A DNA stretch of 64,000 nt, taken from NCBI RefSeq assembly GCF_000378505.1, contig NZ_KB899995.1:1-64000 (forward strand), given 5' to 3'. This stretch comes from Modicisalibacter luteus DSM 23508. GTDB taxonomy: Bacteria; Pseudomonadota; Gammaproteobacteria; Pseudomonadales; Halomonadaceae. Positions 43,373 to 59,472 of the stretch are shown here, one piece after another (positions within the stretch are counted from its first letter, which is position 1; every line of letters starts with the position of its first letter). The translations under genes were made by a program, and so were the position numbers. The notes under the pieces were generated by a model. That model saw nothing but the letters and a program-made list of their open reading frames with translations. It was not told the DNA's origin and made no database searches.

Positions 43373-43619
43373 GAGCGCTTCCTACGGTCTGTCTGAAAAT
43401 GTCTGCGCTTGATCACATTGTTAACAACCCGCTCAAGATGCGCATTTACACCATGTAGATTCCGTTCTTTCACCGATTTTGCCTTGTCTGGGCTTCGCTC
43501 GCCGATGCTTAGACAAGCCCTAAGCTGACATCAAAGGCCATTGGTGAAGGGGCAGCTTTCAGCGTAGCGCATGAGAGGAAAGGGTCGGGGTGCGTGACGG
43601 GCATCCCGAAGGAGAGTAT
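43373..43619. other. Non-coding chromosomal flank left of the island
   Basis: No gene is visible. This stretch lies between the GST start and the left island border and must have been the original sequence downstream of yicC. It holds a 7-bp inverted pair CTTGTCT/AGACAAG around 43486-43520 that could be a terminator remnant. Confidence 0.5.
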
Positions 43620-43640
43620 TCACTCAATATTCTGGATCTG
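43620..43640 (-). repeat. Left attachment site: duplicated yicC 3' end
   Basis: Bases 43627-43640 repeat 58616-58629 exactly (14 bp); over 21 bp, 18 agree. Read on the minus strand it encodes the codons for QIQNIE and a TGA stop, the same end as the intact yicC, with only synonymous changes. Similarity stops at 43641. This is the displaced original yicC tail left by site-specific integration. Confidence 0.9.
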
Positions 43641-43722
43641 AATAAGCAATAAAAATGATAAATCCCTGCAGCACAGGGGGTGGAGCTGTTTAGGTCGCCG
43701 ATGTAAACCTCAACCCGCCAAG

Positions 43723-43734
43723 CTACCCACCACA
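43723..43734. repeat. Putative integrase arm site, left
   Basis: CTACCCACCACA here recurs at 58483-58494 near the other island end, with an inverted 11-bp copy at 58431-58441. It is 83 bp from the left core site. Positions on both flanks of the core sites fit arm-type binding sites of a P4-type integrase. Confidence 0.5.
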
Positions 43735-43886
43735 TTGCTGGCATACAGTATTAACCTAACTGCAAGCAGGATATAAAAGGGCTCGGCACAACGCACACGG
43801 AGGATGCTTTCAGGTGAGACCTGTTGCGGCGCAGCTATATACGCTATAGCTTCCCTCGGACTACGATTCAGATAGGGCTTCTACTC

Positions 43887-44396
43887 ATGAAAAAGTCTCG
43901 TGCTGGCCGAATCCTTGAGCGTTATGAGGCTCTCTCTGCCAAACGTGAAGGGCAGGCTGCCGAACGAGAGGGCTGGGATACCGCATCTGAGGAATCGAGC
44001 ACCCGTATTGGGAAACTGCTTCAGCATCTCAACAGTGATGATCTTGAGAGAACCTCAGCAGGTCGCTCAGGCTGGGAAGGTAAATTTCATGTGATCGATC
44101 AGACAGAAGCTGAGCGGTTCAGGCAGCAGCAAGTCCAGCCGGCCAACGAAGCTCGCAGGAATAAGAAGCAGGCAAGAATTGATGCGATCAAGCAGGCCGT
44201 GATGCACTTTTGGACGGAAAAGCCTGCGATCAGAGCTGCATCGCCCCGTGAGGCGAGGTCTATGCTGGTTCGTTTCTGTCAGATGGCTGGCGTCGAGTTC
44301 TCGATAAACGCTAATCGAGACATGTCCGAGGCGACACAAGAACTTGCGGCAGAAGGGATCTTGCCGCGTTCATTTGGAAAACCCCGGCAGAAGTGA
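43887..44396 (+). CDS. Hypothetical protein of the island
   Basis: A 169-residue, hydrophilic protein with no signal peptide or membrane segment. The first half is rich in Arg/Glu and probably helical (RILERYEALSAKREGQAAEREG). The second half has a compact segment AVMHFWTEKPAIRAASPREARSMLVRF and ends with Pro/Arg/Lys. The ATG at 43887 has AGGG about 9 nt upstream; a TTG at 43824 would extend it by 21 residues. It is the first gene inside the left border, in line with AlpA-like and IstA-like genes. I do not recognise the family. Confidence 0.6.
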   Translation: MKKSRAGRILERYEALSAKREGQAAEREGWDTASEESSTRIGKLLQHLNSDDLERTSAGRSGWEGKFHVIDQTEAERFRQQQVQPANEARRNKKQARIDAIKQAVMHFWTEKPAIRAASPREARSMLVRFCQMAGVEFSINANRDMSEATQELAAEGILPRSFGKPRQK

Positions 44397-44458
44397 TACC
44401 TAACGACGTCGTGTATTACATTTCGTCGATCTGTACCCCTTTATAGTCAAGACACGAA

Positions 44459-44740
44459 ATGATGTCTGGGAGACTTGTGAATCCCGGAGACATCGTAGTG
44501 TCGTCATCTACCCCCCTATTCTGCCAGCCTATCCCATTGGATCGCGGCATTCGTGAGCGCGAGTGTTACGAGCTGACAGGCATTTCTCGCTCGTACCGTT
44601 GGCGTCTTGAGCAAGAAGGACGCTTCCCTCGCCGCCGGCGCACCGGTCTGCGCTGCCATTACTGGCTCCTCAGCGAGCTAATGGAGTGGCTCAAAGACCC
44701 AGAGGCCTTTGCGACAGGCGCGAGCCAGAGGGCGAGCTGA
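44459..44740 (+). CDS. AlpA-family helix-turn-helix regulator
   Basis: A 93-residue small DNA-binding protein like AlpA of cryptic prophages and P4-like satellites. The HTH part is CYELTGISRSYRWRLEQEGRFPRRRRTG, followed by HYWLLSELMEWLKDPE, the usual strand-helix end (W...SE...WL). AlpA-type proteins turn on integrase or excision genes. The double ATG at 44459-44462 has no good ribosome-binding site, so the true start could be later. It lies 42 bp before the IstA-like gene. Confidence 0.75.
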   Translation: MMSGRLVNPGDIVVSSSTPLFCQPIPLDRGIRERECYELTGISRSYRWRLEQEGRFPRRRRTGLRCHYWLLSELMEWLKDPEAFATGASQRAS

Positions 44741-44781
44741 TGTGTGGCCCCATCGCCAAGGCGAGGTGAGGGATCATACGT

Positions 44782-46173
44782 ATGCCCAAGCAGCGATTAT
44801 CTTCTGCCGATATTCGTAACGTGATCGAGCTGCGACATAGTGGCGGCTCCCTCTCCTGCCGTCGAATAGCCCAGCAGGTGGGGGTAGGTCCGTCCAGTGC
44901 GCACAAGGTACTGAAATCTGCGTACGGACCTTTCCTTGAAGCGATTCAGGCTGGCAGCGAAGTGACTGATGCCATGCTATTGCAGTGGGTTTATCCCAAC
45001 CCTTCCCATACCAAGCATACGGACTGGGCCCGAGTACACTATCAGCTCCAGAGCGGCATGACCCGCAAGTTCTGCTTCGAGCAATTGCGCAGTGAGGAAA
45101 AGGCTTTTTTCGGCTACTCGCGGTTTTGCGAGTTGTACAACGAATGGTTATCCGCACAGCCTGCTTCGTCATCGGTCCACTGCATGCCAGCCCATACCTG
45201 CATTGTGTCGGTCATCGAGTGTACGGTAGCAGATCGACGCTCCCCAAGAATGAGTTTGTTTGTGGGGCTGCTCCCAGCATCGAACTACTTATATCTCGAC
45301 GCCTATGTGCCTAATGGCAGTCCATTTGAATTGTTCGACTGCATGGCACGCCTGTTTGCACATGTCGGTGGAGTGCCGCAACAGGTGGTAATACCCCCGA
45401 TTAAAGGTATTGAGGACTATCGGCTGCTGGAACGTACTCTTGGCACGAGTGTGACCGTGAGCGTGCCTAGAAAACAGTGGAGCGGGCCGGGTAGTGACCT
45501 TGCTTCGAGTGCGTTTAACTGGGTAGCTAGTCAGCTTGCTGCGTATCGAAAATCTCAGCTCGCTTTGATGAAAGTGAAGCTTCAAGTACTAGCAGCAGAG
45601 TGGAATAGCTCAGGGCTTGACTACTATCCGGCTGAACCAATTCAGCGAGCATTGGAAAGAGTCGAACGCTGCAGGCTTAACGCCCTTATCAAGACTTCCG
45701 ATGCCTTCACGCATCGGAAGTCAGTAAAGGTCGGGCTCAGCAGTCACGTCAAGTACGGCATGGTGTTTTATTCGGTGCCATACGCACTTGTCGGTCAAGC
45801 TGTCGAGGTTGAAGCCTCAGCAGACCGTGTGCGGGTCTATAACGGACAGCGTCTGGTTGCAGACCATCCAAGACAGGCAAGCACATATTACCAGACGAAG
45901 CCTGCTCATATGAGGACGCGTGGTGCTCAGGTTGCCCGAGAGCGGTCACGAGATCGCTTCATGAGCTGGGCAATTAGAATCGGGCGTAACACCACCAAGT
46001 GGGTTCGGACAAGGATGGATCAGGCTGAGTACCCTGAGCATGCTTATGAGAGCTGTCGCCGGCTACTCAGTTTGGCCAATATCCATGGCCCTAAGAGGCT
46101 GGAGCGTGCCTGTGGGAGGCGGGGTGTCCGAACGATGGATGATATCAGGAAGATACTTAGTAGAGCTGACTAG
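44782..46173 (+). CDS. IS21 IstA-like protein lacking the DDE catalytic residues
   Basis: A 463-residue protein with the architecture of IS21-family transposase IstA: an N-terminal HTH (CRRIAQQVGVGPSSAHKVL), the segment FFGYSRFCELYNEWL, an RNase H-like core and a C-terminal beta domain (YSVPYALVGQAVEV). In active IstA the core reads about FVDYAG, VPDNLKS and KAKAEV. The matching places here are IVSVI, VIPPIKG and GSDLASS, so all three acidic residues seem replaced. The reading frame is otherwise intact and ends with the usual GPKRLERACGRRG region. No istB gene follows and no terminal inverted repeats were seen. It may be a repurposed DNA-binding protein. Confidence 0.72.
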   Translation: MPKQRLSSADIRNVIELRHSGGSLSCRRIAQQVGVGPSSAHKVLKSAYGPFLEAIQAGSEVTDAMLLQWVYPNPSHTKHTDWARVHYQLQSGMTRKFCFEQLRSEEKAFFGYSRFCELYNEWLSAQPASSSVHCMPAHTCIVSVIECTVADRRSPRMSLFVGLLPASNYLYLDAYVPNGSPFELFDCMARLFAHVGGVPQQVVIPPIKGIEDYRLLERTLGTSVTVSVPRKQWSGPGSDLASSAFNWVASQLAAYRKSQLALMKVKLQVLAAEWNSSGLDYYPAEPIQRALERVERCRLNALIKTSDAFTHRKSVKVGLSSHVKYGMVFYSVPYALVGQAVEVEASADRVRVYNGQRLVADHPRQASTYYQTKPAHMRTRGAQVARERSRDRFMSWAIRIGRNTTKWVRTRMDQAEYPEHAYESCRRLLSLANIHGPKRLERACGRRGVRTMDDIRKILSRAD

Positions 46174-46417
46174 CGTACAGCAAGGGTGCCTTTAGTTGTA
46201 GGGCGCCTGTTCGCAATGGCTGGAATCAGCCTAGGTCTTCATGGAGTGCAAATGGGCTGTCTCCCGAAATTGTACCCTGAAAAGATGTATGAACGGCGTT
46301 GAAACTAACTCCGGCACAGCTGAGTTGTAATGAGGCAAAAGCCGTGTCCACTAGGTTTTTAATAGTGTCCACAGGAAGCCGGGCCGATGCTGGAAACAAC
46401 TAGAATTGCGAGAGGCG

Positions 46418-47062
46418 ATGAAAACCTATACCACAGAGACCACTGCGACCATGGACGGTCTAACTGTATACCTGAACACGTTGAAGGGATCGGGATGCAG
46501 TATGGAAATGCTGGGTGCAGCTAAACGCCAAGTAGACGCCATGCTGACCCACCATAACAAGGTGCTGACCATCTACCTCGGCGTACACGTGAGCACGTAC
46601 ACGCCGGACAATGCGGTCATGTCCCAATATGTGCGGTCAGTTCGGAAGATGCTTACAACCAAGCCGAGCAGCAGGGCCGCCTCATGTAGACCTGCGTTTC
46701 GCCGTGTTGGATTCGCTTGGTTCCGCGAAATGGACCGCGCGAGGAAGCAGCACTACCACATGGCGATCATGCTCGACGGCAACGTGGTACGAGCTCCACA
46801 ACGTATATTCGATAGCGTCCTAAAGCCTGCAGCCGAGCGGCTGGGGGCCACCGCTTGGCTTTATGAGAGGGCCTGCCGGCTGGATCGGCAGGACAAAGAT
46901 GCCTATCTGGCATGCCTGTACCGCTTATCTTATGGGGCTAAAGAACACAGCAAATATGGTCGAAAGGCCACAGCCAACGACTACAGTACCAGCCGCATCC
47001 AGCCCAGCCCCTCGACCTCGTGGACGGGTTTCAAGAACGAGGCCTCAAAGAGCTGCACATAG
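46418..47062 (+). CDS. YagK/YfjJ (inovirus Gp2-like) domain protein
   Basis: A 214-residue protein resembling the YfjJ/inovirus Gp2 family found in P4-type prophages and islands, thought to act in replication or its control. The core shows LTIYLGVHVSTYTPD, then FAWFREMDRARKQHYHMAIMLDG, where the His-x-His strand resembles a rolling-circle (HUH-like) motif, and the tail LYRLSYGAKEHSKYG. The ATG at 46418 is used; a TTG at 46406 is possible. It is the last plus-strand gene of the satellite-like module and is followed by 680 bp without a gene. Confidence 0.65.
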   Translation: MKTYTTETTATMDGLTVYLNTLKGSGCSMEMLGAAKRQVDAMLTHHNKVLTIYLGVHVSTYTPDNAVMSQYVRSVRKMLTTKPSSRAASCRPAFRRVGFAWFREMDRARKQHYHMAIMLDGNVVRAPQRIFDSVLKPAAERLGATAWLYERACRLDRQDKDAYLACLYRLSYGAKEHSKYGRKATANDYSTSRIQPSPSTSWTGFKNEASKSCT

Positions 47063-47745
47063 GGCAGAACGGCTTACCAGCGGCAGGGCCCTCCACAACG
47101 GCTCCCTTTGACTACCCCCTATTATCCCAAACTACGTACTACCCCAGTACTTGGTGTTACCTCCTGTCGAATGGGCCCTGCTTGTGTCCAAACCTGTTGC
47201 CGCGCAGGCCAGAGGGCCCTTAAAAGGACCTTCTGGCCTGCGTGATGTGCCCCTGCCAGTAAGGGTTAATGGCCTCATTTCGTACTTTGTAACTCGCTGT
47301 GGCAGAAAAACTATCACGGTCTAGCTCGAAGGCCGGGGGTGCGAAAACGAACTATCGGACTCCAGTACGTACCAGTGCCTTTCGCGCCACTGCAGAGCGG
47401 TCGTTGCCAACTATAGACTGAGGCGGAATGGCAAGTTGTGCACGATGCGTAGGCAAAAATCCAATCGCCTTGTCAACGCAAGTTGGTGTGGCGCAGGCTG
47501 ATTGACCTGCGCTCAGGTAGGTACTTAGAGGGTAGCGGTCGCTTCAGCAGGTTAGTATTTCAGAGCCTTTAAGCTCTCTGTCCCGACACACCGGTGGCAT
47601 TCTAGTGGGAGTGCATGGCTTCGGGTGTTGTACAACGAGGCTTTGAATAAGGCGCGCGCTGCCTTGCTGGGTTGTACAACGAATTGAGCTGTCGGGTGCA
47701 AGCCAGATAGGCAGGCTTGTAGGCTGGAAGTCGCTTGAAGAGGGA
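47063..47745. other. 683-bp gene-free region between Gp2-like gene and recombinase
   Basis: No convincing gene is present on either strand; the short frames lack ribosome-binding sites. Structures seen: a 7-bp hairpin (47491-47497 with 47506-47512) and two copies of a palindromic 12-mer (see the repeat entry). It separates the convergent satellite module and the minus-strand recombinase. It may hold recombination or transfer sites. Confidence 0.4.
47627..47682. repeat. Two direct copies of GTTGTACAACGA
   Basis: Copies at 47627-47638 and 47671-47682, 44 bp apart, contain the palindrome GTTGTACAAC. A one-mismatch copy (GTTGTGCAAC) lies at 58516-58525 near the right border. They lie 64-108 bp from the end of the FimB-like recombinase gene and could be its binding sites. 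Confidence 0.45.
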
Positions 47746-48372
47746 CTAGAAGCGCAGCTTCTCGAACGGGCGCCCCGTAAGAGCCGTGTACGCGACCGTG
47801 TTCTGGATGTTGGCATGGCCCATATACTGCTGCACGGTGCGCAAGTCCGTACCGCTGTTGATCAAGTGGACGCCACAGGCATGACGTAGTGCATGGGGAT
47901 GCCACTTTACCCCGAGTACGCGCTCCGTAAGACGGTGGAACATGCGACGGAAGCCGTCTGCGCTGACTGGGGTGCCCCGCTCGTTCACGAACACGAGGCC
48001 ATGCGAGCGCTTGGTCTCTCGCTGATAGCGCTTCAATGCCCGGATCGTTTCGCCTTGGACAGGATGCGTACCATCAAGACTTCCTTTCGCTCGCGATACG
48101 CTCAGCTGATGACCACTGTCGAGGTCAATAGCTTGCCAAGTCAGGCTAACTAGCTCGGAGACGCGCAGCCCATGCTCGAAAGCCATACGAATCATCAAGG
48201 AATCACGGTGCCCATGGCGGTTGTGCTTCGCTTCCCTTATGAGCCGATGGACTTCGTCGCGCATAAGGTATTTGCGCCCCCGAGCTTCATCGTTTGCCTG
48301 TCGGCTGTTAACTGTCCGGCTTTCAGTGGCTGGACGTAGCACAACCACGTTTCCCTTAACCGCATTGCTCAT
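47746..48372 (-). CDS. Short FimB-like tyrosine recombinase
   Basis: A 208-residue site-specific recombinase that consists almost only of the catalytic domain. The residues are complete: Arg70 (GLRVSEL), Lys96, His160 and Arg163 (HPHALRHA), His186 (MGHANIQ) and Tyr195 (AYTAL). The normal N-terminal core-binding domain is absent, as in FimB/FimE invertases of the same size. It has its own candidate promoter (48432-48460). It follows hsdR on the same strand with 95 bp between them. Its target sites are unknown; only one hsdS gene is present, so shuffling of specificity genes is not evident. Confidence 0.8.
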   Translation of the reverse strand: MSNAVKGNVVVLRPATESRTVNSRQANDEARGRKYLMRDEVHRLIREAKHNRHGHRDSLMIRMAFEHGLRVSELVSLTWQAIDLDSGHQLSVSRAKGSLDGTHPVQGETIRALKRYQRETKRSHGLVFVNERGTPVSADGFRRMFHRLTERVLGVKWHPHALRHACGVHLINSGTDLRTVQQYMGHANIQNTVAYTALTGRPFEKLRF

Positions 48373-48398
48373 GGACTCATCTCATTCTCAGGCGCATC

Positions 48399-48460
48399 AC
48401 TGTCCGGATTCCAGCTAGAACCCGGACAGTTATTATACCGCGTGGTGATGAGGCCGTCAT
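48399..48460 (-). promoter_or_regulatory. Promoter and operator-like repeat for the short recombinase
   Basis: On the minus strand ATGACG (48460-48455), 17 bp, then a perfect TATAAT (48437-48432) form a sigma-70 type promoter. A perfect 9-bp inverted repeat (48422-48430 and 48399-48407) covers the expected start point and the first bases of the transcript, so a repressor or RNA hairpin may control it. Confidence 0.6.
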
Positions 48461-48467
48461 ACGATTT

Positions 48468-51400
48468 TCACTGACTCCAGCCGTTCGACAGAGCCTCGGC
48501 TTGCTTGAGTACCATCTCGACAGCTTCAGGCGCTTTGTCGGGTGGGTACTTGTAGCGTTGTAGGGTGCGCCGCACCAGAATACGCAGCTTCGCGCGCACA
48601 CTTTCACGTACCTGCCAGTCGACGGTGGTGGACTTGCGCAGCTTCTCAGTGATTTCGACGGCGATCTTCTTTAGAGTCTCGTCGCCGAGCTCACGCACTG
48701 CGCTTTCGTTGTTGGCCAGCGCATCGTAGAAGGCGACCTCGTCCGGGGTAAGGCCCAGTGCCGCGTCGCGTTCCAGCTCCGCTTGGAACTGCTTGGCCAT
48801 CTGGATCAATTCTTCGATCACCTGTGCGGTCTCGATACCTCGATTGTTATACTTACGCAGCGTCTCCTGCAGACGGTCCGCGTATTTCTTCTCTTGTACA
48901 ACGTTGCTGCGAGTCTTGGCCTTGATATCGTCTTTCAGCAGTTTTTCCAGTAATTCGACCGCGAAATTCCTGTAGGGCATCTGGCGGACATCCTCGAGAA
49001 ACTCGTCGGAGAGCAGGCCGATGTTGGGCTTGTCGAGACCGCACAGAGCGAACACATCGGAGACGCCTTCGGAAACCAACGCATTGTCTAGAATCTGCTT
49101 AAGCGCCGAGTTCTTCTCGTCCTCGGTAAGCTTGCTGTCGACGCTAGTGACCTTGGTAATCGCGGTTTTAACCGCTGATAGGAAGGCGATTTCCTTGTGC
49201 AGGTCACGGGCTTCGTCGAGGGTGCCACACAGCGAGTAGGCCTTGTTCATGGCTAGCACGGTGTCGAGGAAGCGTCTTTTGCCGTCTTCCAGTCCCATGA
49301 TGTAGTTGGCTGCCGGTATCAGCAGCTTGTTGGGATTGTCTGCAAAGCCGCTGTAATCGAAGCCTTCGCTGTTGGGGCCTTTGGCAAACATGCCGTGGAT
49401 GACGTCGAGCTTTTCCAACAGCACGGCGTAAGCTTCTTCGGCGCTATGCGTGGGAGCGCCTTTGCCTTTGGCGTCGGTGTAAGTTTTCAGCGCCTGCTTT
49501 AACTCGTTGGCGATGCCGATGTAGTCCACCACCAAGCCGCCGGGCTTGTTCTTGAACACGCGGTTCACCCGGGCAATGGCTTGCATTAAGTTGTGGCCCT
49601 TCATGGGCTTGTCGATGTACATGGTGTGACAGCAAGGAGCGTCGAAGCCGGTCAGCCACATATCCCGCACGATCACCAACTTGAACGGATCGTTGGCATC
49701 CTTGAAGCGTTTTTCCAGCCGCTTCTTGGTTTGCTTGTTATAGATATGCGGCTGCAGCAGCGGCTTGTCCGACGCTGAGCCGGTCATCACGATTTTGATC
49801 ACGCCCTTTTCTGGGTCGGGGTCGTGCCACCCGGGCCTGAGCGTGACAATTTCGTTGTACAAGTAGGCGCAAATATCGCGGCTCATGGCCACGATCATGG
49901 CTTTGCCTTCGATGGTCGCGTTGCGCATCTCGAAGTGCTTGACCAGATCAGCAGCGACTTCCCCCAAGCGCGGCCCGGCACCGACGAGCTTTTCCAGTTG
50001 GCTCCACTTACCCTTAGCGCGCTCGCGCGTGCCGACGTCTTCCTCGTCCTCAAAGACCTCTTCGACCTGATCCGACAGCGAGGCAATCTCGCCTCTGTTG
50101 ATATCGAGCTTAGCCAAGCGTGACTCGTAGTAAATCGGCACCGTCGCCCCGTCATCGACGGCATCCTGAATGTCGTAGACCGAGACGTAGTCGCCGAACA
50201 CCGCACGGGTGTTCTTGTCTTCGCTGGCGATGGGCGTGCCGGTAAAGCCAATGAACGATGCGTTCGGCACAGCGTCGCGCATGTGCTTGGCATAGCCGAA
50301 CTTGTAGCTGCCGTCCTTTTTGAGCGTGGCCTTCAAACCATACTGGCTACGGTGGGCTTCGTCGGAAATCACCACGATGTTGTGGCGGTCATTGAGGATG
50401 GGATGCCCAACCTCTCCCTCCAGCAGCGCAAACTTTTGCACCGTAGTGAAAATAATACCGCCAGACTCGCGCTCGGCGAGCATTTGGCGCAGCTCGTCTC
50501 GGTCGTGAGCTTGCACGGGTGTCTGCTTCAGTAGTTCTTTGGCGTTGCTGAAGGTGGTAAAAAGCTGCCCGTCAAGGTCGTTTCGGTCGGTGACTATAAT
50601 CAGCGTCGGGTTGTGCATCTCCGGCTGCTGCAGCAGCTTTCCGGCGTAGCAGCACATGGAAATACTCTTGCCGGAGCCTTGGGTATGCCAGACGACGCCC
50701 GCTTTTTTACTGCCTGCCACCAGTACATCGTCGTAGGCCGCGCGCTTCTCGCCCTGTGTGTTTACTGCCGGTGCCTGAGCCGCGATCACCGTGGCGCGCA
50801 CGGCTTCGCGTACGGCATGAAACTGGTGGTACCCGGCAACCTTTTTGATCAGCCGATCAGCATCGGTCTCAAACAGCACGAAGTAGCGGATGTAATCTAG
50901 CAGCAGTGTGCGATCGAAAAAACCGCGCACCATGGTCTCTAGCTGCCACTCCAGCAGCGGCTTATCGTCTTCGTGCTTGATGGTGCGCCACGGCATGTAG
51001 CGTTCTTGGCTGGCGGTCAGCGAACCCATACGTGCGTTGAAGCCGTCGCTGATCACGATGGCTTCGTTGTACACGAAAAGCTCACTGACCTCGTCTTTGT
51101 AGGTTTGAATTTGGTTGTAGGCATCCCAGATGTCCACGTTCTCAGCGTTGGGGCTCTTGAGCTCCAGCACCGCGATAGGCAGGCCGTTGATGAAGCACAC
51201 TACGTCAGGGCGTCGCAGTTGTTTGGTGCCTTCAATGGTGAACTGATTGACTGCGCGGAAGCGGTTTTCACCAATATGGGTGAAGTCGATTAAAAATGCC
51301 CGGTCGCGAACTTCGTCGTCGCCGTTCTTGTACTTCACCGGCACGCCATCGAGCAGCAATTGGTGGAAGGCGCGGTTGCTAATGGTGAGGTCGAGGCTTT

Positions 51401-51623
51401 CTGGCTTACGTACCTGCGCCACTACCTGATCAATTACATCTGAAGATAGATGGGGATTTATGCGGAAGATAGCCGCTTCCAGATCTGCCAGTAGCAGTAC
51501 TTGCCGATAATCGTTGCGCTCCGGTGCTAAGCCGTCGGGAGCAATGTCTGGGCCGTGGCCGATCTCCCAGCCTCCTTCGGCAAACCACTCAAGACAGAAC
51601 TGCTCAAGTATATCTTCGTTCAT
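48468..51623 (-). CDS. hsdR: Type I restriction enzyme, motor/nuclease subunit HsdR
   Basis: A 1051-residue subunit that translocates and cuts unmodified DNA when bound to HsdM/HsdS. The PD-(D/E)xK nuclease is N-terminal, with Asp140 and the ELK of residues 154-156 (AVLELKSP). The helicase motor has Walker A HTQGSGKS (313-320) and DEAH (421-424), then GFTGTPI and ARVNRVF. All key residues look intact, so the enzyme should be active. It ends the operon hsdM-hsdS-ATP-binding gene-hsdR; 3 bp separate it from the preceding gene. Confidence 0.95.
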
Positions 51624-51626
51624 CTG

Positions 51627-53840
51627 TTACTCCCTTGAGCCACGACTTGGTGCCCGTGTCATGTATGCCTGCATTTTATGTGTCGGGACTTGGGGAAAAG
51701 CCTGAACAAGCAGATAATTTTGCAACATCTTCTTGAGATACTGGTTGCGTAAGGTGTCTGGTTCTCGTTGTACCAGCTGGGCTAGGCAGACGCGCGTAAT
51801 GTAATGACCGTTACACAGTTCTAGGATTATTTGCTCGAACTCTTCAGGTGCTACACGCTTCTTGCGGCGGGGTAAGTTGGCAACGGCTTCCAGTGTTTCC
51901 CGAAAACTTGGAGATAACTGCTCTAGGTCGTGGATCATGGGCGCCGAAAGAATCGGGGTGACGAATCGTCCATACTCATCGTAGTGCCCATCTCCGGAGC
52001 TCCCCTCGTTATCTACGGAGCTCCCCTCGTTATCTACGGAGCTCCCCTCGTTATCTACGGAGCTCCCCTCGTTATCTACGGAGCTCTCCTCGTTACCTAC
52101 GGAGCTCTCCTCGTTATCTACGGAGCTCTCCTCGTTACCTACGGAGCTCTCCTCGTTACCTACGGAGCTCTGCTCGCTATCTACGGAGCTCTGCTCGCTA
52201 TCTACGGAGCTCTCTCTGCTATCAAATAGCTCAACATCTGGTTGATTAATAAGGAAAATATCGCTTTCGCCTTCATCGAGGCTGCTACCGGATACCGTGA
52301 CTTCTACGGTACCGCCAAATACCTGCTCAGGTGTCGGTAGGCTCTCCCCCGGTAAATGGTAGACGGTGCCTCGGCCATGACCGCTTGGTCTCAGGAAGTC
52401 CAGTCTCGCCAGCTGCTGCAGCGTTGCAGTCACATCACGAGCATGCTGGGTGGTGATTTCGCAGATCCTTGTATGTGTAATCACTTGCTCGGTGGCTGCC
52501 GTAGCTAGAATCAGCCTTTCAAGCTTGGAAAGATGCAGAAATGCTTCGCCAAACATCTCAGTCAGCTGGTTCAATATTCCTTCTGGGAATAATTCCAGCA
52601 TCCTCAACTCCAGAAGAGTCTGCTGGGGTTCTAGCTTCTGGTAGAGCGCAGGGCGCCGCCAATGGCGCCAATCCCAACCACTGTAGATCTTGGGCAGCCC
52701 TGAGCCTGCCCGCTCACCGAGACCTATCAGCAGGAACATCTGGTGCATTATCCTGTTGCGGCAGTCCGATAGGCCGCCTTGCACAGCATCTTCCAGTGGA
52801 ATACGCATGTCGCCGGGATTACGGAATCCGAACATGTCTGGGCGCTTGACCACCAATATCGGTACACTTCCCATGTAATCAGCATGCACTAGCGTATTGA
52901 CCAGTGCTTCGCGAATCGCCTCGTGTACAGGGGTATCTTCCCTGCGCTGCCCTTCTGAAAGCTTAAATGGCACCTTAAGATCTTCTGTCAGCTTGCGATA
53001 GACGCGCCGATAAAAGTCAAATAAGTTACCGGACCAACTACCATCCGGTACCAGCCGGTCCACCCAACGAAGTTCTGCTTTGGCTTCGGGCCGTTCTTGA
53101 TAATCCACGAAATAATGGGGTACGGCCTCTTGGATAGCTTCCCAGCGTCCAAACATAAGTAGGCCTGCTAATGTCAGCCCTTCTTCGTTTGTCGACCTGT
53201 CACGCCGCCAGCCGCGTAGCTTTTTTAGGAATTCTCGGTCATCAAGCTCAAGATAAGGGTGGCCCGGCTTCGCATCCTTAAGCATCTGGCGATAGACACG
53301 AAAGCTATCCTGCTCGATATCCTCCCAGCCGAAACCATGCAAGATGCGTGCATCGCGTTCGTCCTCGGCTTGTTCAGCCAACATCCGGCGTACCACCTCA
53401 CTGCTCTGTAACTGATCGGTGCTGTTAAGGCGCCGGTAGGTGCCGGTCAGTGGGTTGCCCTTAAGGAAGACGGGTTTATGCTTGCGTGTCGCAGCCGGTA
53501 TATGGACCTGCACCAGTGTCTTACCGTCGATCTCGACTTTTCTTACGCACTGGTTATGTAAAATATTAATGCTAGCCTTTTGAGGGTTATTGAGCCCTGT
53601 CCACAACTCATCAATCACTTTTTGTGGGTCGGCAACACCGGCCAGCTCGAAGCGATTCCCCGATTTCTCAAGGATGCCGAGGAGAATGTCGCCACCCTGC
53701 GTATTGGCGAAGGCGCTATAAGTCTCCCAGAAGTCTTTCGGTAACGCACCTTTGCCATCGCGGCCTTGGGCGAGTTTACACTCGATATCCTCGCTTTCGC
53801 GTAGAGCCGCGATGTCCTCTAGCGAACCAAGCTCAAGCAT
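51627..53840 (-). CDS. AlbA_2/GHKL ATP-binding protein within the hsd operon
   Basis: A 737-residue protein with an N-terminal AlbA_2-type domain (RESEDIECKLAQGRDGKGALP ... AFANTQGGDILLGI, about residues 10-130), also called divergent AAA-4 or Schlafen-like. A GHKL-type ATPase follows around residues 300-400 (EAIREALVNTLVHADYMG; FRNPGDM). Winged-helix regions lie near 430-490. A linker of ten 7-residue repeats (SSVDNEE-type) spans about 538-615, then a helical tail. Such proteins recur inside type I restriction operons, but their role is not known. It overlaps hsdS by 8 bp and hsdR by none (3-bp gap). Confidence 0.82.
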   Translation of the reverse strand: MLELGSLEDIAALRESEDIECKLAQGRDGKGALPKDFWETYSAFANTQGGDILLGILEKSGNRFELAGVADPQKVIDELWTGLNNPQKASINILHNQCVRKVEIDGKTLVQVHIPAATRKHKPVFLKGNPLTGTYRRLNSTDQLQSSEVVRRMLAEQAEDERDARILHGFGWEDIEQDSFRVYRQMLKDAKPGHPYLELDDREFLKKLRGWRRDRSTNEEGLTLAGLLMFGRWEAIQEAVPHYFVDYQERPEAKAELRWVDRLVPDGSWSGNLFDFYRRVYRKLTEDLKVPFKLSEGQRREDTPVHEAIREALVNTLVHADYMGSVPILVVKRPDMFGFRNPGDMRIPLEDAVQGGLSDCRNRIMHQMFLLIGLGERAGSGLPKIYSGWDWRHWRRPALYQKLEPQQTLLELRMLELFPEGILNQLTEMFGEAFLHLSKLERLILATAATEQVITHTRICEITTQHARDVTATLQQLARLDFLRPSGHGRGTVYHLPGESLPTPEQVFGGTVEVTVSGSSLDEGESDIFLINQPDVELFDSRESSVDSEQSSVDSEQSSVGNEESSVGNEESSVDNEESSVGNEESSVDNEGSSVDNEGSSVDNEGSSVDNEGSSGDGHYDEYGRFVTPILSAPMIHDLEQLSPSFRETLEAVANLPRRKKRVAPEEFEQIILELCNGHYITRVCLAQLVQREPDTLRNQYLKKMLQNYLLVQAFPQVPTHKMQAYMTRAPSRGSRE
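51996..52226. repeat. 21-bp tandem repeat array inside the ATP-binding gene
   Basis: Ten units of exactly 21 bp run from 51996 to 52205, plus a degenerate eleventh to 52226. Each begins GGAGCTC and ends (A/C)TCTAC or similar. Because 21 is a multiple of 3, copy changes alter protein length by 7 residues without a frameshift. Units at one end (52017-52079) are identical, which points to recent expansion. Confidence 0.95.
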
Positions 53841-55263
53841 TGGCTACCTCCGCGATCTTAGTCTCAGCGGAGGGGGCTTCTAGCTCCCCCGAGAGCAATT
53901 CGGGAAGCAGGGTATCGCGTAGCGATGCAAGCGAACGAGCCTCTTGGATTTTCTGGTCGATCAAAGAGAACAAAGGGCTTACTTGCCTTTCATAGGCTTC
54001 TGCCAGTGCTTTCGAGGGCATAGAAAATTGGTAGTCTGGCACAGCGTTTTTATCCAGATGCAGTACGGTTGTTCCCGTAGTGTACGCTCTGGTGTGGGAC
54101 TGGAAACCATCCGTCCCAGCTAAGCCATACAAATATGGTTTTAACTTCTCCTCAAACGGACGGATTACAGCGACGTCCAGTGAGACAACCAAGTGTTCGT
54201 ATCTACTATCACTGACTACCAGTGCCGGCTTTCCAATAACATCAGCGGCTTGTGTTACGTCGGTGTAGGCAATAATGAGGTCCCCGGCAAAGACCTCCTG
54301 CTTAGGTTTGTACTTACCTGTGTATTCTTTCAGTCCATCAAGCCTATACCCACCGCCTCGATTGAAGGACTTGAGTGTAACAAGCGCAGTATTTGATGAT
54401 GAAAGCTCGGCGCTTTTGTACGACTTTCCTTTGATGACTTCCGCTATTTTCCCAATAGAAGTTACTTCCCATCCCTCAGGTATCTCGCCTAGCTCGCTCT
54501 CCTGCATCGCAGAGGGGAACAGCGCGGCGGTGGCGCGCAGCTCAGCGAAGCGTTCAGACTGCTCGGTGCGTAGCAAGGCCAACTGATCCGCAGTTTTGCC
54601 TGATATCGCCTCCATGGCGGCTAGTAACGCGTCCATGTCGCTGCCACCTGCTTCCAACACCGAGACCTTGGCCTTGACCGGATCGAAGTCGACGAACCAG
54701 CTTTTGAAGAGGGCTTGGGCCATCTGCTGAAGCGTGTTGTTGATGCGGTGGTTGAGCTGAATTTTTTTATCTATGCTACCCAATATGCTGGCCATGAATT
54801 CCTGATGGCCTATTGGGGGTTGCGGAAGCACTAGGTTGCTTAGGGCCCTTCCAGACAAGTGCTTAATCGTTGTTCCGGTAAAGTAAGGTTCGAGTAAGCC
54901 ATGTTGACCAGCATAAAGAAACCAGTAATACAAGTAGCGGTTATTAAAAGATGGTTTAGCCCGGACACGATGCAGTGCTTTCTGGATTTTCATTTCTGGA
55001 AGCTCACCTTCCCATATTGCACAGCGCCCCGGTTCGCCTCCTTCACACACTATTAGATCACCGGGTTTAATTCCGTAGCGCTCATGTTCATGCTCCTCAA
55101 ATTTCATCTGAGCAAGATCAGATAAATCAAATTCTCCCCAGCGGACATTGCTATTGCCGAGGTAAGGTTGTTCAACGCCTTTGTTTTTCTGCTTGTCCAG
55201 CATCTTCCCCAAGCAAGAGTCAACGTGATCGCCCAAGCGGACTTTCGGCCAATTAAACTCCAT
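53833..55263 (-). CDS. hsdS: Type I restriction enzyme specificity subunit HsdS
   Basis: A 476-residue subunit that recognises a bipartite DNA target. Two target recognition domains are visible, about residues 1-155 and 250-415. They are separated by a conserved helical spacer (IDKKIQLNHRINNTLQQMAQALFKSWFVDFDP) and followed by a second one (LFSLIDQKIQEARSLASLRDTLLPELLSGEL). The ATG at 55263 overlaps the hsdM end by 11 bp; the end overlaps the ATP-binding gene by 8 bp. The DNA sequence recognised cannot be predicted here. Confidence 0.93.
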   Translation of the reverse strand: MEFNWPKVRLGDHVDSCLGKMLDKQKNKGVEQPYLGNSNVRWGEFDLSDLAQMKFEEHEHERYGIKPGDLIVCEGGEPGRCAIWEGELPEMKIQKALHRVRAKPSFNNRYLYYWFLYAGQHGLLEPYFTGTTIKHLSGRALSNLVLPQPPIGHQEFMASILGSIDKKIQLNHRINNTLQQMAQALFKSWFVDFDPVKAKVSVLEAGGSDMDALLAAMEAISGKTADQLALLRTEQSERFAELRATAALFPSAMQESELGEIPEGWEVTSIGKIAEVIKGKSYKSAELSSSNTALVTLKSFNRGGGYRLDGLKEYTGKYKPKQEVFAGDLIIAYTDVTQAADVIGKPALVVSDSRYEHLVVSLDVAVIRPFEEKLKPYLYGLAGTDGFQSHTRAYTTGTTVLHLDKNAVPDYQFSMPSKALAEAYERQVSPLFSLIDQKIQEARSLASLRDTLLPELLSGELEAPSAETKIAEVANA

Positions 55264-56974
55264 ACCCCAGCCCCCCAAGGTTGCGCTTGATCTCCGCTTC
55301 CAACTGGTCGCTTTCATCAAACTGCTCGCGTAACTGCCCGGTCAGCTGGGCCATTTTATCGGCGAAGGGCACGCCATCGTCTTCAAGTTCCGCTGCACCG
55401 ACGTAGCGCCCCGGTGTCAGCACAAAGTCGTGCTTTTGGATATCAGCGAGGGTGGCGGATTTGCAGAACCCGGCAATGTCCTCGTAGCCCTCGTCACGCT
55501 GCCACGCGTGGAAGGTATCCGCGACCTTGGCAACATCATCGGCTGTAAAATCGCGAATGACGCGGTCCTTCATGTAACCCAACTGGCGGGCGTCGATGAA
55601 TAGCACCTCGCCTTTACGCGCGCGCTTTTTAACCCCGTTCGGCGATAACCCGCCTGTTTTGTCCTTGGTCAGTAGCCAGATGCAGGCAGGGATCTGCGTG
55701 TTGGTGAACAGCTGACCCGGTAGCGCGACCATGCACTCAACCAAGTCCTCTTCCACCAGCCGCTTTCGAATTTCGCCTTCATTGTTGGTGTTCGAGCTCA
55801 TGGAGCCGTTGGCCAATAGCAGTGCCATGCTGCCCGCTGGGCCGAGGTGATAAAGCATGTGCTGTAGCCACGCGAAGTTGGCGTTGTTCTTCGGTGGCGT
55901 GCCGTACTTCCACCGGGCGTCCTCGGTGAGTGATTCGCTCCACCAGTCCTTCATGTTGAACGGCGGGTTGGCCATCACGAAGTCGGCACGCAGGTCGGGG
56001 TGCTGGTCGTTGAGGAAGGTGTCAGCCGGTTTTTTGCCAAACGCGAAGTCTATGCCGCGTATGGCCATGTTCATGGCCGCCAAGCGCCACGTGGTGGGGT
56101 TGGACTCCTGCCCGTAAACAGAGATATTTTTCTTCTGCTCGCTGGGATCGTAGTGCCACTCTTTGGCGTGCCCTTCGATGAACTTGTCATTGGAAACAAA
56201 GAAGCCGCCTGAGCCCATGGCGGGGTCGTAGACGCGCCCGCTGTAGGGCTCCAGCATTTCCACGATCAGCGAGACGATGCTTTTCGGCGTGTAGTATTGC
56301 CCGCCCTGCTTGCCCTCCGCTAAGGCGAACTGACCGAGGAAGTATTCGTATACGTGACCGAGGATGTCCTTGCTCTGCAGGCTGAGCTTCTCGCCCTTGA
56401 ACTCGGGGGCCGCGAATGACGTGTCGGAAAACGAGTTGATCAGGCCAATGAGCTTGTCGTTATCGACCTCGTACTGGCTGACACGGGTGAGCACGCCTTT
56501 CAGTTTGGAGGCGTTCTCTCGCTCGATGGCGTCCAGTGCGTTGTCGATCAGCCACGACACCGAGCGCAGCTTGACGTCATTGCCGTTGACGTCTTGCCAC
56601 AGTACGGAGCCGGTGGGCAGCGCCGCCTTAGACTTCAGCGTGCTCCAGCGCGCCTCCTTCGGCACCCAGAACACGTTGGCTTCCCGGTAGTAGTCGAGCA
56701 CTTCCAGCTCTTCGTCCAGCGCTTGCTGGTACTCATCGTCACTGTTGACGTCTTCCCGAGGCAGATAGTAGATGTTGTCATCGCTGTCCTTCTGGAACAG
56801 CTCGCGTAGCTCACGCTGGCGTTCCTCGAAGGCGTCAGATACGTACTTCAGGAAGATCAACCCCAGCACTACGTGCTTGTAGTTCGCTGCATCAAGGTTG
56901 GCTCGAAGCTTGTCGGCGGCTTTCCAGAGCTTGTCGTCGAGTTCCTTCAGGAATTGCTGCTCGGCGTGATCCAT
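55253..56974 (-). CDS. hsdM: Type I restriction enzyme methyltransferase subunit HsdM
   Basis: A 573-residue adenine N6-methyltransferase. The N-terminal helical HsdM domain is followed by the catalytic domain with motif I DPAMGSGGFF (250-259), which binds S-adenosylmethionine, and motif IV NPPF (336-339), the active site. It protects host DNA and pairs with HsdS and HsdR. GAGAGAGAG precedes the ATG. It is the first gene of the operon; a convincing promoter could not be picked out in the 110 bp upstream. Confidence 0.95.
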   Translation of the reverse strand: MDHAEQQFLKELDDKLWKAADKLRANLDAANYKHVVLGLIFLKYVSDAFEERQRELRELFQKDSDDNIYYLPREDVNSDDEYQQALDEELEVLDYYREANVFWVPKEARWSTLKSKAALPTGSVLWQDVNGNDVKLRSVSWLIDNALDAIERENASKLKGVLTRVSQYEVDNDKLIGLINSFSDTSFAAPEFKGEKLSLQSKDILGHVYEYFLGQFALAEGKQGGQYYTPKSIVSLIVEMLEPYSGRVYDPAMGSGGFFVSNDKFIEGHAKEWHYDPSEQKKNISVYGQESNPTTWRLAAMNMAIRGIDFAFGKKPADTFLNDQHPDLRADFVMANPPFNMKDWWSESLTEDARWKYGTPPKNNANFAWLQHMLYHLGPAGSMALLLANGSMSSNTNNEGEIRKRLVEEDLVECMVALPGQLFTNTQIPACIWLLTKDKTGGLSPNGVKKRARKGEVLFIDARQLGYMKDRVIRDFTADDVAKVADTFHAWQRDEGYEDIAGFCKSATLADIQKHDFVLTPGRYVGAAELEDDGVPFADKMAQLTGQLREQFDESDQLEAEIKRNLGGLGYGV

Positions 56975-57085
56975 CTCTCTCTCTCGATTCGCGGTGCTTG
57001 TCCTGCGTGGGTAAGCGTGTTCGGTTATGGCGTAGCAGGGTATCGCTGTTCTAGCGCACGTGTAACTATCGGTTTGCGCAAAGCT

Positions 57086-57109
57086 GCCTCGGCAGGTGGC
57101 TGCCGAGGC
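57086..57109 (-). terminator. Hairpin between integrase and hsdM
   Basis: A perfect 9-bp GC-rich stem (57086-57094 with 57101-57109) and 6-nt loop lie 81 bp after the integrase stop and about 110 bp before hsdM. T content after the stem is low, so it may be a weak terminator that insulates the hsd operon. Confidence 0.5.
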
Positions 57110-57189
57110 CCTGTTTAGTTGCGTAAGGCGGCCAAAACGGGCTCTGAAGGATCGAAAGCACTTTGCCCATACCCAAGAGGGGCCTCTCG

Positions 57190-58416
57190 TTAAGAAGCCT
57201 TCTGAACGCGCTCCGGGCGTGCGTCGGGTTCTGTCACGATCAATGGCCAGAACGCATCAATTAATAAACGCTGGGCCTGCCGCCGTTGCTCCACATAGTC
57301 GTGTCGATCGTACGTATTGATTTTGTGGTTGATGTAACGCTCAGCGATGTGTGGCTCCACCTCCAACTCGGCCAGCTTGGTTCGGCACGTGCGCCGGAGA
57401 TCGTGCACTGTGAATGGCTTGAGCGGATGATTCAGGCTCTTGAGCGCGACGTTGAGCGTATCAGGCGACATGTGCCCGAACCGCTTGGTCTTTCGATGCG
57501 CGGGGAAGACGTAATTCGAACCACAGCCGTGCACTTTTAGCTCTTTCATCAACTCGATGACCTTCGGCTCCAGAGGAATGGTGATCGGATGCCGTGTTTT
57601 AGTATTGCCACGATCCAGTTGCCAAATGCCTGTCTCCAAATCGAAAGCCGTCCATTGGGCTGACAAGAGCTCCATCTTGCGGACTCCCAGCACCAGCAGT
57701 AAAGCAATGGCAATATGGTTAGGCCGAGAGAAAGAGAGGCCTGCTTGCCGAATCGACTGTTTCAGCGTTTGGATCTCATCGTCCAGCAGTACTCGGTCCC
57801 GAGGGATCTCTTTGCCACCAGCGTCACTCTCCTTGAAAGGAAAGGCAGGGTTGAACGCCGTGAGGCCCAGCTTGATGGCGTGGTTGAAGAGCGTCTTGAT
57901 AAGCCACAGCGCGTCGTTGGCGACAGTCGGCCTTTGAGGGCTCTCAAAGGCAATCTTATGCAAGACCCTCTGTACTTGGTTCGGTTTTACCTCACTGACG
58001 CTGATGGACCCCAGTTCAGGTTGAATCTCTCTCTTGTAAAGAGATAGCTCCTTTCGATGCGAAGCTACCCGCCGGCAGCGAATCGCATAGTAGTTATCCC
58101 ATACGCTATCGAGAGTGTTCATCTGCGTACGGTTCTTCTCATCCCGTTCATCCTTGGGATCTTGCCCATGCGCGAGCAACTTGCGCCACTCAGCTGCGCG
58201 TTCGCGCGCATCCGAAAGTGGCAAGTCGGGATACTTGCCAAGAGTAACTTCGCGCCGTTTCCCGCTGACAGGGCTCTTGTAGCGCATCATCCAGCGGGTA
58301 AAGCCCGTTTCGGTGATCTCAAAAAAAAGGTTACCCCCGTCGGCTGCGCGACAAGGGACTCCCTTGCGCTCCAGTGACTTCAAGGTGGATGAGTTGAGTT
58401 GGTTGATAGCTGCCAC
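57190..58416 (-). CDS. P4-type tyrosine integrase
   Basis: A 408-residue integrase. The N-terminal arm-binding domain (DUF4102-like: KGVPCRAADGGNLFFEITETG) is followed by the core-binding domain and a catalytic domain. Catalytic residues are Arg246 (GVRKMELL), Lys273, His338 and Arg341 (HDLRRT), His364, and Tyr374 (YDRHDY). All are present, so the enzyme should work. It lies about 190 bp from the right border, and the duplicated yicC tail shows the target. The putative arm sites are just upstream of its start. Confidence 0.93.
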   Translation of the reverse strand: MAAINQLNSSTLKSLERKGVPCRAADGGNLFFEITETGFTRWMMRYKSPVSGKRREVTLGKYPDLPLSDARERAAEWRKLLAHGQDPKDERDEKNRTQMNTLDSVWDNYYAIRCRRVASHRKELSLYKREIQPELGSISVSEVKPNQVQRVLHKIAFESPQRPTVANDALWLIKTLFNHAIKLGLTAFNPAFPFKESDAGGKEIPRDRVLLDDEIQTLKQSIRQAGLSFSRPNHIAIALLLVLGVRKMELLSAQWTAFDLETGIWQLDRGNTKTRHPITIPLEPKVIELMKELKVHGCGSNYVFPAHRKTKRFGHMSPDTLNVALKSLNHPLKPFTVHDLRRTCRTKLAELEVEPHIAERYINHKINTYDRHDYVEQRRQAQRLLIDAFWPLIVTEPDARPERVQKAS

Positions 58417-58608
58417 TAGCGGTTCTCGGCGTGGTGGGTAGGAGGTGCCCTTTTGAAGGGACGCGAACTATAGCCCACCTTTCTACCCACCACAATATGA
58501 GTGACACGTGAGTACGTTGTGCAACATTGCGAAACGAGAAGCTGATAAAAGTTCAGCAAAATCAATGTAGAAGATTACGGCGGTAAATCTTCGAGCCAAC
58601 CTGAGTCA
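58417..58608. other. Right island end with integrase arm sites
   Basis: A 192-bp AT-richer non-coding stretch between the integrase start and the yicC stop. It holds the perfect 11-bp inverted pair GTGGTGGGTAG (58431-58441) and CTACCCACCAC (58483-58493); the latter recurs near the left border. These probably serve the integrase and its promoter. Confidence 0.55.
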
Positions 58609-58629
58609 TTATTCGATATTCTGGATCTG
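58609..58629 (-). repeat. Right attachment site: end of yicC supplied by the island
   Basis: The last six codons and stop of yicC. Bases 58616-58629 are identical to 43627-43640. The three differences in the other 7 bp are synonymous, so the island's end replaces the lost yicC codons without changing the protein. Confidence 0.9.
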
Positions 58630-59472
58630 CTCGCGCATCTGCTCGATCAGCACCTTGAGCTCCACCGCGCAGCGGGTACTTTCGGCAACCACGGATTTGG
58701 ACGACAGCGTGTTGGCCTCGCGGTTGAGTTCCTGCATGAGGAAATCGAGGCGACGACCAACCGGGCCTTTCTGCTTGAGCTGACGCTCGACCTCGGTGAC
58801 GTGGGTCTCGAGGCGGTCGAGTTCTTCATCGACATCGGCCTTCTGGGCGAGCAGTGCGATTTCGGCTTCCAGGCGCTGGGGCTCGAGCTCCGCCTTGAGT
58901 GTTTCGAGGCGCTCGAGTAGCTGGCTGCGCTGGCGGGCCAGAATGTCGGGCAAGAGAGCACGAACTTCGGCGACCTGAATGCGCACGCCGCCGAGGCGTT
59001 GGCGGATCAATTCGGCCAGGCGTTCGCCTTCGCGGGCCCGGCCGGCGATCAGGTCGTCCAAGGCCACGTCGAACAGCGCCATGGCCTCGCGCTGAACGAT
59101 GTCCAGATCGATACCGTAAGTTTCCACCACGCCAGGATGATCAAGCAGCTCCAGTGCGTTGGGCATGGCTGCGTCGGGAAGTTCGGCGCGGACCTCGTGC
59201 AGGGCACGGGCCAATTCGGCCAGGCGTTCACGATTGACGCGCAACGATTCGCCGGTAGCCGCCGGCTCGAAGCGCAGGTGGCATTCCACCTTGCCGCGGG
59301 CCAGGCGGTTTCTCAGCGCTTCGCGAAAGGCGGACTCCAGATCGCGCAGGCTATCCGGCAGACGAAAGTGCGGTTCCAGGTAACGCTGGTTCACCGAGCG
59401 CAGTTCCAGTTGCAGGCTGCCCCAGTCGGCGTCGCGGGTCTGCCGGGTGAAGGCGGTCATGCTATGGGTCAT
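58609..59472 (-). CDS. yicC: YicC family endoribonuclease
   Basis: A 287-residue protein of the YicC family, a metal-dependent endoribonuclease in RNA decay. It starts MTHSMTAFTRQTRDADWGSLQLELRSVNQRYLEPHFRLP, typical for the family, and has the C-terminal DUF1732 part (RRLDFLMQELNREANTLSSKS) ending in EQMREQIQNIE. The ATG at 59472 has AGGA 8 nt upstream; the longer frame to 59691 overlaps the rph promoter region. Its last codons are the island attachment site. It is divergent from rph. Confidence 0.94.
   Translation of the reverse strand: MTHSMTAFTRQTRDADWGSLQLELRSVNQRYLEPHFRLPDSLRDLESAFREALRNRLARGKVECHLRFEPAATGESLRVNRERLAELARALHEVRAELPDAAMPNALELLDHPGVVETYGIDLDIVQREAMALFDVALDDLIAGRAREGERLAELIRQRLGGVRIQVAEVRALLPDILARQRSQLLERLETLKAELEPQRLEAEIALLAQKADVDEELDRLETHVTEVERQLKQKGPVGRRLDFLMQELNREANTLSSKSVVAESTRCAVELKVLIEQMREQIQNIE

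Follow-up and report, generated by a model that had tools for sequence, protein, structure and literature searches.

Duplication of the yicC 3′ end

Why is the 3′ end of yicC present twice in the genome of Modicisalibacter luteus DSM 23508, and what has the DNA between the two copies done to the gene? This was addressed in the first 64,000 nucleotides of contig NZ_KB899995.1 (hereafter the window). It is nearly certain that an integrative island of 15.0 kb was inserted here by its tyrosine integrase, which recombined the attachment (att) site of the island with the final codons of yicC in the chromosome. Four observations carry this reading: the duplication itself, the empty sites of relatives, the linkage of the integrase with yicC, and a mosaic of host and element sequence at the end of the gene.

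The two copies lie at 43620-43640 and 58609-58629, are identical at 18/21 positions and share an exact core of 14 bp. With the right copy as query, no third site was found at up to 5 mismatches on either strand of the 64-kb window. Read on the minus strand, both the left copy (AATATTGAGTGA) and the right copy, in yicC (AATATCGAATAA), encode QIQNIE followed by a stop, and differ in the Ile codon, the Glu codon and the stop. A sequence-only reading of the window had reported these copies, their shared peptide and a complete integrase adjoining the right one. All three were confirmed, the last being a full-length tyrosine integrase whose start is 192 bp from the yicC stop. G+C content per kb is 50-58% at 43-59 kb and mostly 59-67% on either side. 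An ARAGORN search of the window for tRNA and tmRNA was negative. The marks of yicC-specific integrative islands, namely 3′-end insertion, a duplicated att site and an intact yicC frame, are all present. The features at the island ends are as follows.

43539-43619, minus strand: sequence natively 3′ of yicC in the host, with a GGGATGC...GCAYCCC hairpin, now stranded beside GST (alignment to empty sites)
43620-43640, minus strand: left att site, the displaced original host yicC tail (downstream sequence matches native yicC ends of relatives G001, G022 and G027)
57190-58416, minus strand: yicC-linked tyrosine integrase with an arm-binding domain (Arm-DNA-bind_3, Phage_int_M and Phage_integrase; homology, linkage and tree)
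58609-58629, minus strand: right att site, the present yicC tail, with the distal ATC GAA TAA assigned to the element (tail scan, relatives' junctions and mosaic)
58609-59472, minus strand: yicC (YicC endoribonuclease family), frame intact (family match; 97% identical to yicC of G001)

Empty sites in relatives

yicC was searched for in 58 genomes and found in 55, and 30 loci, the window's included, were examined with 1.5-kb flanks. In three relatives, G001, G027 and G022 (loci L002, L015 and L023), GST and the left-junction sequence align beside the yicC end. With the island removed, the window aligns to all three with yicC, its tail, the CTTCGGGATGCC...GCAYCCCG hairpin and GST contiguous. Each of the three holds one exact tail copy, and no integrase match was found on their yicC contigs. 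The spacer of L002 is approximately 65 bp longer and contains part of the hairpin segment a second time. Site-specific insertion at the 3′ end of yicC had been proposed in the sequence-only reading, which expected GST and yicC to be adjacent, with a single copy of the tail, in relatives without the island; these three genomes have that arrangement and support the proposal.

The sequence downstream of the left copy is native, and that 3′ of the present yicC stop is not. On this evidence the displaced left copy is the host's original yicC end, and the tail now on yicC arrived with the island.

Linkage of the integrase with yicC

The window integrase keeps the residues that are invariant among ten homologues, a set which its own sequence helped to define. 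Apart from the self match, the top seven integrase matches in the 58 relatives (41-46% identity) all adjoin yicC. At the next 22 loci examined (L039-L060) no yicC lies within 1.5 kb; identity there is 26-32%, save for a fragment of 120 residues at 46%. Of 369 genomes drawn from across the class, 7 passed 1e-45, and yicC is present at the locus in the window, G028, L062 and L064. In a collection of 84,980 species at least 505 stretches encode relatives of the integrase. The best 80 were analysed, and linkage to yicC was found in 80/80: in 79 the integrase gene directly follows yicC and points the same way, and L142, whose contig begins 435 bp before the integrase gene, retains the last yicC codons. 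Within the same family as M. luteus the integrase is carried by 43/201 genomes, the window's included, and yicC is present at 30/30 loci examined from these 43 (13 others fall outside the count).

In a quick tree of 52 integrases, 44 yicC-linked rows and the window integrase, on a long branch, cluster together (support 90), and 7 others fall outside. The window integrase belongs to this yicC-linked group, where it joins L109 and L037 (support 97). The yicC-linked rows comprise 43 hand-chosen members of the 80 loci together with L037; of the 12 outside rows intended, five (L043, L045, L048, L049 and L057) are absent, and the tree is drawn without the published yicC-island integrases themselves. 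Full-length integrases of the family are at most 46% identical to that of the window (one 47% fragment apart). Plasmids and phages gave only matches below 60%, at 29-37% among the 10 listed of 1653 plasmid records and, for phages, 28-29% in the 8 records listed out of 543 with a match. Short integrase fragments also lie beside yicC in two other genera (G033:C18:133187-133423 and G035:C1:2097551-2097658), as traces of decayed islands.

Second tail copies were sought across the family. The exact degenerate tail occurs twice in 13/201 genomes, and a reversed control gave 0 in all 201; for G543 and G561 the positions lie outside the matches listed. Two copies are present in 9/43 integrase-positive genomes versus 4/158 of the others (Fisher p = 1.6e-4). 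Where both lie on one contig in an integrase-positive genome, the spacings among the matches listed are 15.0 (window), 28.8, 31.6, 33.5, 38.7, 38.7, 49.9 and 50.5 kb, making the window island the smallest of the eight; in G475 the copies are on two separate contigs. In a genome without an integrase at 1e-45, two yicC-type tails lie just 1.5 kb apart (G495:C14:202416-203963), perhaps a nearly deleted island.

Sequence supplied to yicC by the element

Host and element contributions were compared in 63 locus pairs whose integrases are more than 90% identical and whose yicC genes are less than 85% identical. The pairs omit L095 and L106 (no integrase open reading frame, ORF, found), L098, L114 and L137 (contig begins inside yicC) and L142 (no tblastn match to yicC). 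In the upstream part of the gene most third bases are 0.25-0.68 identical; the Met codon (1.0) and several Gln/Glu codons (0.76-1.0) are higher. The values near the end of the gene are Asn (−7) 0.49, Ile (−4) 0.78, last Glu (−1) 0.94 and stop 0.95-1.0. When six clusters of integrases more than 95% identical (at least 2 loci each) were examined, wobble positions were found to vary in 6 clusters at −22, 2 at −19, 0 at −16, 5 at −13, 2 at −10, 3 at −7, 2 at −4, 1 at −1 and 0 at the stop. Pairs and loci are not independent in these counts, and some codons vary little anyway. The window is consistent with this mosaic, its two copies differing exactly at −4, −1 and the stop.

Near-identical integrases in divergent hosts thus show that the element supplies about two codons and the stop. 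Exchange therefore falls around the last three codons, with the element contributing about I-E-stop and the downstream DNA and not all of QIQNIE. The earlier idea that the island re-supplies the last codons of yicC holds for about the last two and the stop, and fails for the whole 21 bp. The companion idea of a tail evolved in another host survives in that the tail travels with the element lineage; as worded it was too strong, the identical 21-mer being present in G009, a genome without the island.

In the proposed mechanism, strand exchange took place within or at the edge of CAGATCCAGAATAT. yicC kept its own sequence to about the Asn codon; from there on, the final two codons, the stop and the DNA behind them are those of the element. 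The end that the host gene had before, with its final codons, stop and hairpin, was displaced by 15 kb and now lies beside GST. Both the frame and the protein end QIQNIE are preserved.

Several observations weigh against this account. The empty site is seen in relatives only, and no excision or circle has been observed for the island. G009, a congener without the island, bears the identical tail with no integrase nearby; in this genome (G009:C38, L003; yicC 95%) an MFS gene lies directly 3′ of yicC, blastn gives no GST match at that place, and the contig has no integrase match. A second exact tail copy is missing from 34/43 integrase-positive genomes, and in G006 an exact copy lies 38 kb from a yicC end that does not itself match the pattern. 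Some codons vary little by nature, which weakens the mosaic; the Gln wobble is 0.84-1.0 identical upstream of the junction. The window integrase is a long branch, 45% identical to the nearest row, and its exact placement is unsure. Lastly, the integrases of L061, L063 and L065 (E <1e-45) have no yicC within 1.5 kb. The absent second copies could be explained by diverged copies, contig breaks or decay. The L061 integrase is located behind a different gene, an ABC-transporter-like ORF, which likewise ends in AATATTGAATAA (L061 1315-1330), and thus as little as about 9-12 bp may suffice as a core. Separately, the tail of G009 is possibly the scar of a lost island.

Candidate integrase arm sites

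Repeat scans at the two ends of the island revealed the following, with functions predicted.

43714-43733, plus strand: candidate left arm sites, CCCGCC-N6-CCCACC, overlapping CTACCCACCAC
58474-58493, plus strand: candidate right arm sites, CCCACC-N6-CCCACC, overlapping CTACCCACCAC
58431-58441, minus strand: third exact copy of CTACCCACCAC, inverted

The three exact copies of CTACCCACCAC (at 43723, 58431 inverted and 58483) all lie less than 180 bp from the cores, against a first-order expectation of 0.017 per 64 kb. The pattern CCC[AG]CC-N6-CCC[AG]CC, which was defined after both ends had been inspected, occurs exactly twice in 64 kb on both strands, once per end (43714 and 58474). Given the Arm-DNA-bind_3 domain of the integrase, these 12-bp-spaced CCCACC pairs probably serve as its arm sites.

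Similar pairs were sought in the 300 nt 3′ of yicC at 79 loci and the window. An exact 7-mer pair at 10-13 bp spacing was present in 64/80 sequences, the window not among them, versus a mean of 3.0 and a maximum of 8 in 50 shuffles; the shuffle control covers this count only, and near-copies among the loci inflate the arm-site counts. A recount of the 79 loci gave a 12-bp pair at 95-135 nt in 52, a 10-bp pair there in 5, a pair elsewhere in 7 and none in 15. The pair in the window is a 6-mer at 117 nt, and by 6-mers the 12-bp pair is found in 63/80, the window included. The chances seem about even that the arm-site code recognised by yicC integrases is specific to each lineage and changes in step with the integrase around a fixed gene-tail core, with the window island a deep separate branch that has kept the architecture. 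As part of that suggestion, the code would be a 12-bp-spaced pair of GGTGGGY, GGGGAGT, GGGTAGT or GGTGACA type, nearly constant in position at about 103-130 nt past the yicC stop and mirrored at the far end of the island.

Cargo genes

Between the left att site and the integrase gene the island carries the following.

43824-44396, plus strand: 190-amino-acid protein of no known family, an internal ATG maybe the true start (no Pfam, PADLOC, NCBIfam or PHROG match)
44459-44740, plus strand: AlpA-like protein, candidate excision factor (PF05930, 4e-12; PHROG 2790, excisionase and transcriptional regulator)
44782-46173, plus strand: relative of IS21-like transposases, with no IstB partner recognised (PF22483; NF033546 below cut-off)
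46406-47062, plus strand: YagK/YfjJ (inovirus Gp2-like) protein (PF11726; 29-34% to Psychrobacter small-plasmid proteins annotated as inovirus-type Gp2)
47746-48372, minus strand: short XerC/invertase-like tyrosine recombinase, catalytic domain only (PF00589; all NCBIfam matches below cut-off)
48468-51623, minus strand: HsdR, type I restriction subunit (TIGR00348 above cut-off; PADLOC REase_I)
51627-53840, minus strand: Schlafen/AlbA_2 protein with a 21-nt tandem repeat (PF04326; TRF)
53833-55320, minus strand: HsdS, type I specificity subunit (PADLOC Specificity_I, 1e-100)
55253-56974, minus strand: HsdM, type I methyltransferase (PADLOC MTase_I, 2e-176; TIGR00497 below cut-off)

By homology, the AlpA-like protein is the predicted excision factor and the YagK/YfjJ protein is possibly a replication protein. 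The type I restriction-modification set is complete, with hsdM, hsdS and hsdR all present and full length, and probably constitutes defence cargo. The tandem repeat of the AlbA_2 gene (51990-52214) consists of 10.7 copies of 21 nt encoding SSVDNEE/SSVGNEE-like heptads, and its length could vary. Little of this cargo recurs at the 80 yicC-integrase loci: tblastn of flanks up to 10 kb found HsdM at 8, HsdR at 4, AlbA_2 at 3, HsdS at 2, and YfjJ and the transposase at 1 each, all at 20-38%. The same island was not found elsewhere: the 190-amino-acid protein has no match in the plasmid collection or viral contigs and a single match, weak and partial, among the 150 other genomes of the family, and integrase matches in plasmids and phages stay below 60%.

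A 683-bp stretch (47063-47745) has no called gene, small ORFs lying outside the scan, and holds an inverted repeat at 47203-47242. The palindrome GTTGTACAAC occurs three times, at 47627-47636, 47671-47680 and 45132-45141, the first two 44 bp apart beside the XerC-like recombinase; at up to 1 mismatch there are 7 matches versus 0.7 expected. Phase variation of hsdS through this recombinase was considered and is unsupported, as no hsdS inverted repeat exceeds 81% complementarity (scan of 47000-57200).

Alternative explanations

The island may still be mobile. The strongest rival to this, possible though doubtful, is that a single site-specific insertion left an element that is now an immobile, decaying remnant. 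The lone IS21-like gene, the short XerC-like recombinase and the stretch without a called gene would fit decay, and the integrase fragments of G033 and G035 show that such islands do decay; however, the full-length integrase keeps its invariant residues, the core is exact, candidate arm-site pairs stand at both ends and the AlpA-like gene is intact. A phage satellite, packaged with the help of another phage and not moved by conjugation as an island, is rather unlikely. The AlpA and YagK/YfjJ families and the P4-type integrase recall satellites, and the island proteins scanned gave no match to relaxases or other mobilization families, but no capsid or packaging family was found among six proteins scanned against PHROGs and the phage integrase matches listed are distant. 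A chance or duplication-born fragment reflecting ordinary chromosomal diversity, as might be suggested by copies so short (21 bp) and only 18/21 alike, can be dismissed given the empty sites in three relatives, the absence of a third copy from the window, the 80/80 linkage among the best 80 loci and the 0/201 of the reversed control.

Relation to known yicC islands

Integrative insertion at yicC has been described before. yicC islands are reported from Shewanella and Pseudoalteromonas, namely GISpuPO1, GISspANA3, GIPspSM9913 and the related GI21 (PMC8978831). The same source describes an integrase, an AlpA-type Xis and type I restriction genes in GI21, 21-bp att sites for GISpuPO1 and GISspANA3, measured excision, and Int21 homologues in Halomonas. 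Defence cassettes with type I restriction also occur in yicC islands (PMC12016545). For Shewanella, yicC islands bearing type I restriction genes are thus already in print. Further examples are Vibrio islands at yicC (PMC5704250) and SGI1-like elements at yicC (PMC8409611). Halomonas meridiana carries an SGI1-related element, and Aeromonas a yicC island (PMC9035990).

The four Shewanella/Pseudoalteromonas islands share with the window island an integrase beside the yicC end and an AlpA-family gene; GI21 additionally shares type I restriction-modification genes, and GISpuPO1 and GISspANA3 the 21-bp att sites (PMC8978831). Compared by description only, the window island differs in that its AlpA gene lies at the end opposite the integrase, AlbA_2 and not AAA_5 stands between hsdS and hsdR, and HipAB was not recognised. 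The Vibrio elements MGIVflInd1, MGIVchUSA1, MGIVchMoz6 and MGIVmi1 likewise combine a tyrosine integrase with the yicC 3′ end (PMC5704250, PMC8409611). They are mobilized via SXT/R391 integrative and conjugative elements or IncC plasmids, whereas no mobilization gene was recognised in the window island. The SGI1-like elements IEEcoMOD1, IESenUSA1 and IEPplInd1 share the target (PMC8409611) and are described as carrying mpsA, traG, traN and sgaC. In contrast, the window island has no TraG- or TraN-sized ORF except HsdR, and no such family was found in ten proteins scanned, mpsA and sgaC not having been sought by their own sequences.

At the loci examined, the 42 further integrase-positive genomes of the family and Halomonas loci L067, L069 and L071 share the target, the orientation and the closeness of the integrase. 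The sequence-only reading had suggested that a halophile island would extend the yicC family. This is not new, given the Halomonas homologues reported (PMC8978831) and the 43/201 genomes found here. The island is a divergent member of a known and widespread class of yicC islands and opens no new class. The 43/201 figure gives a measure of how common use of the yicC site is in the family, and the empty sites together with the cross-species mosaic reveal what an insertion of this kind exchanges in a protein-coding gene, namely about two codons and the stop. The candidate arm sites at the island ends are testable targets, and these findings are useful for annotation and for the design of integration vectors in halophiles.

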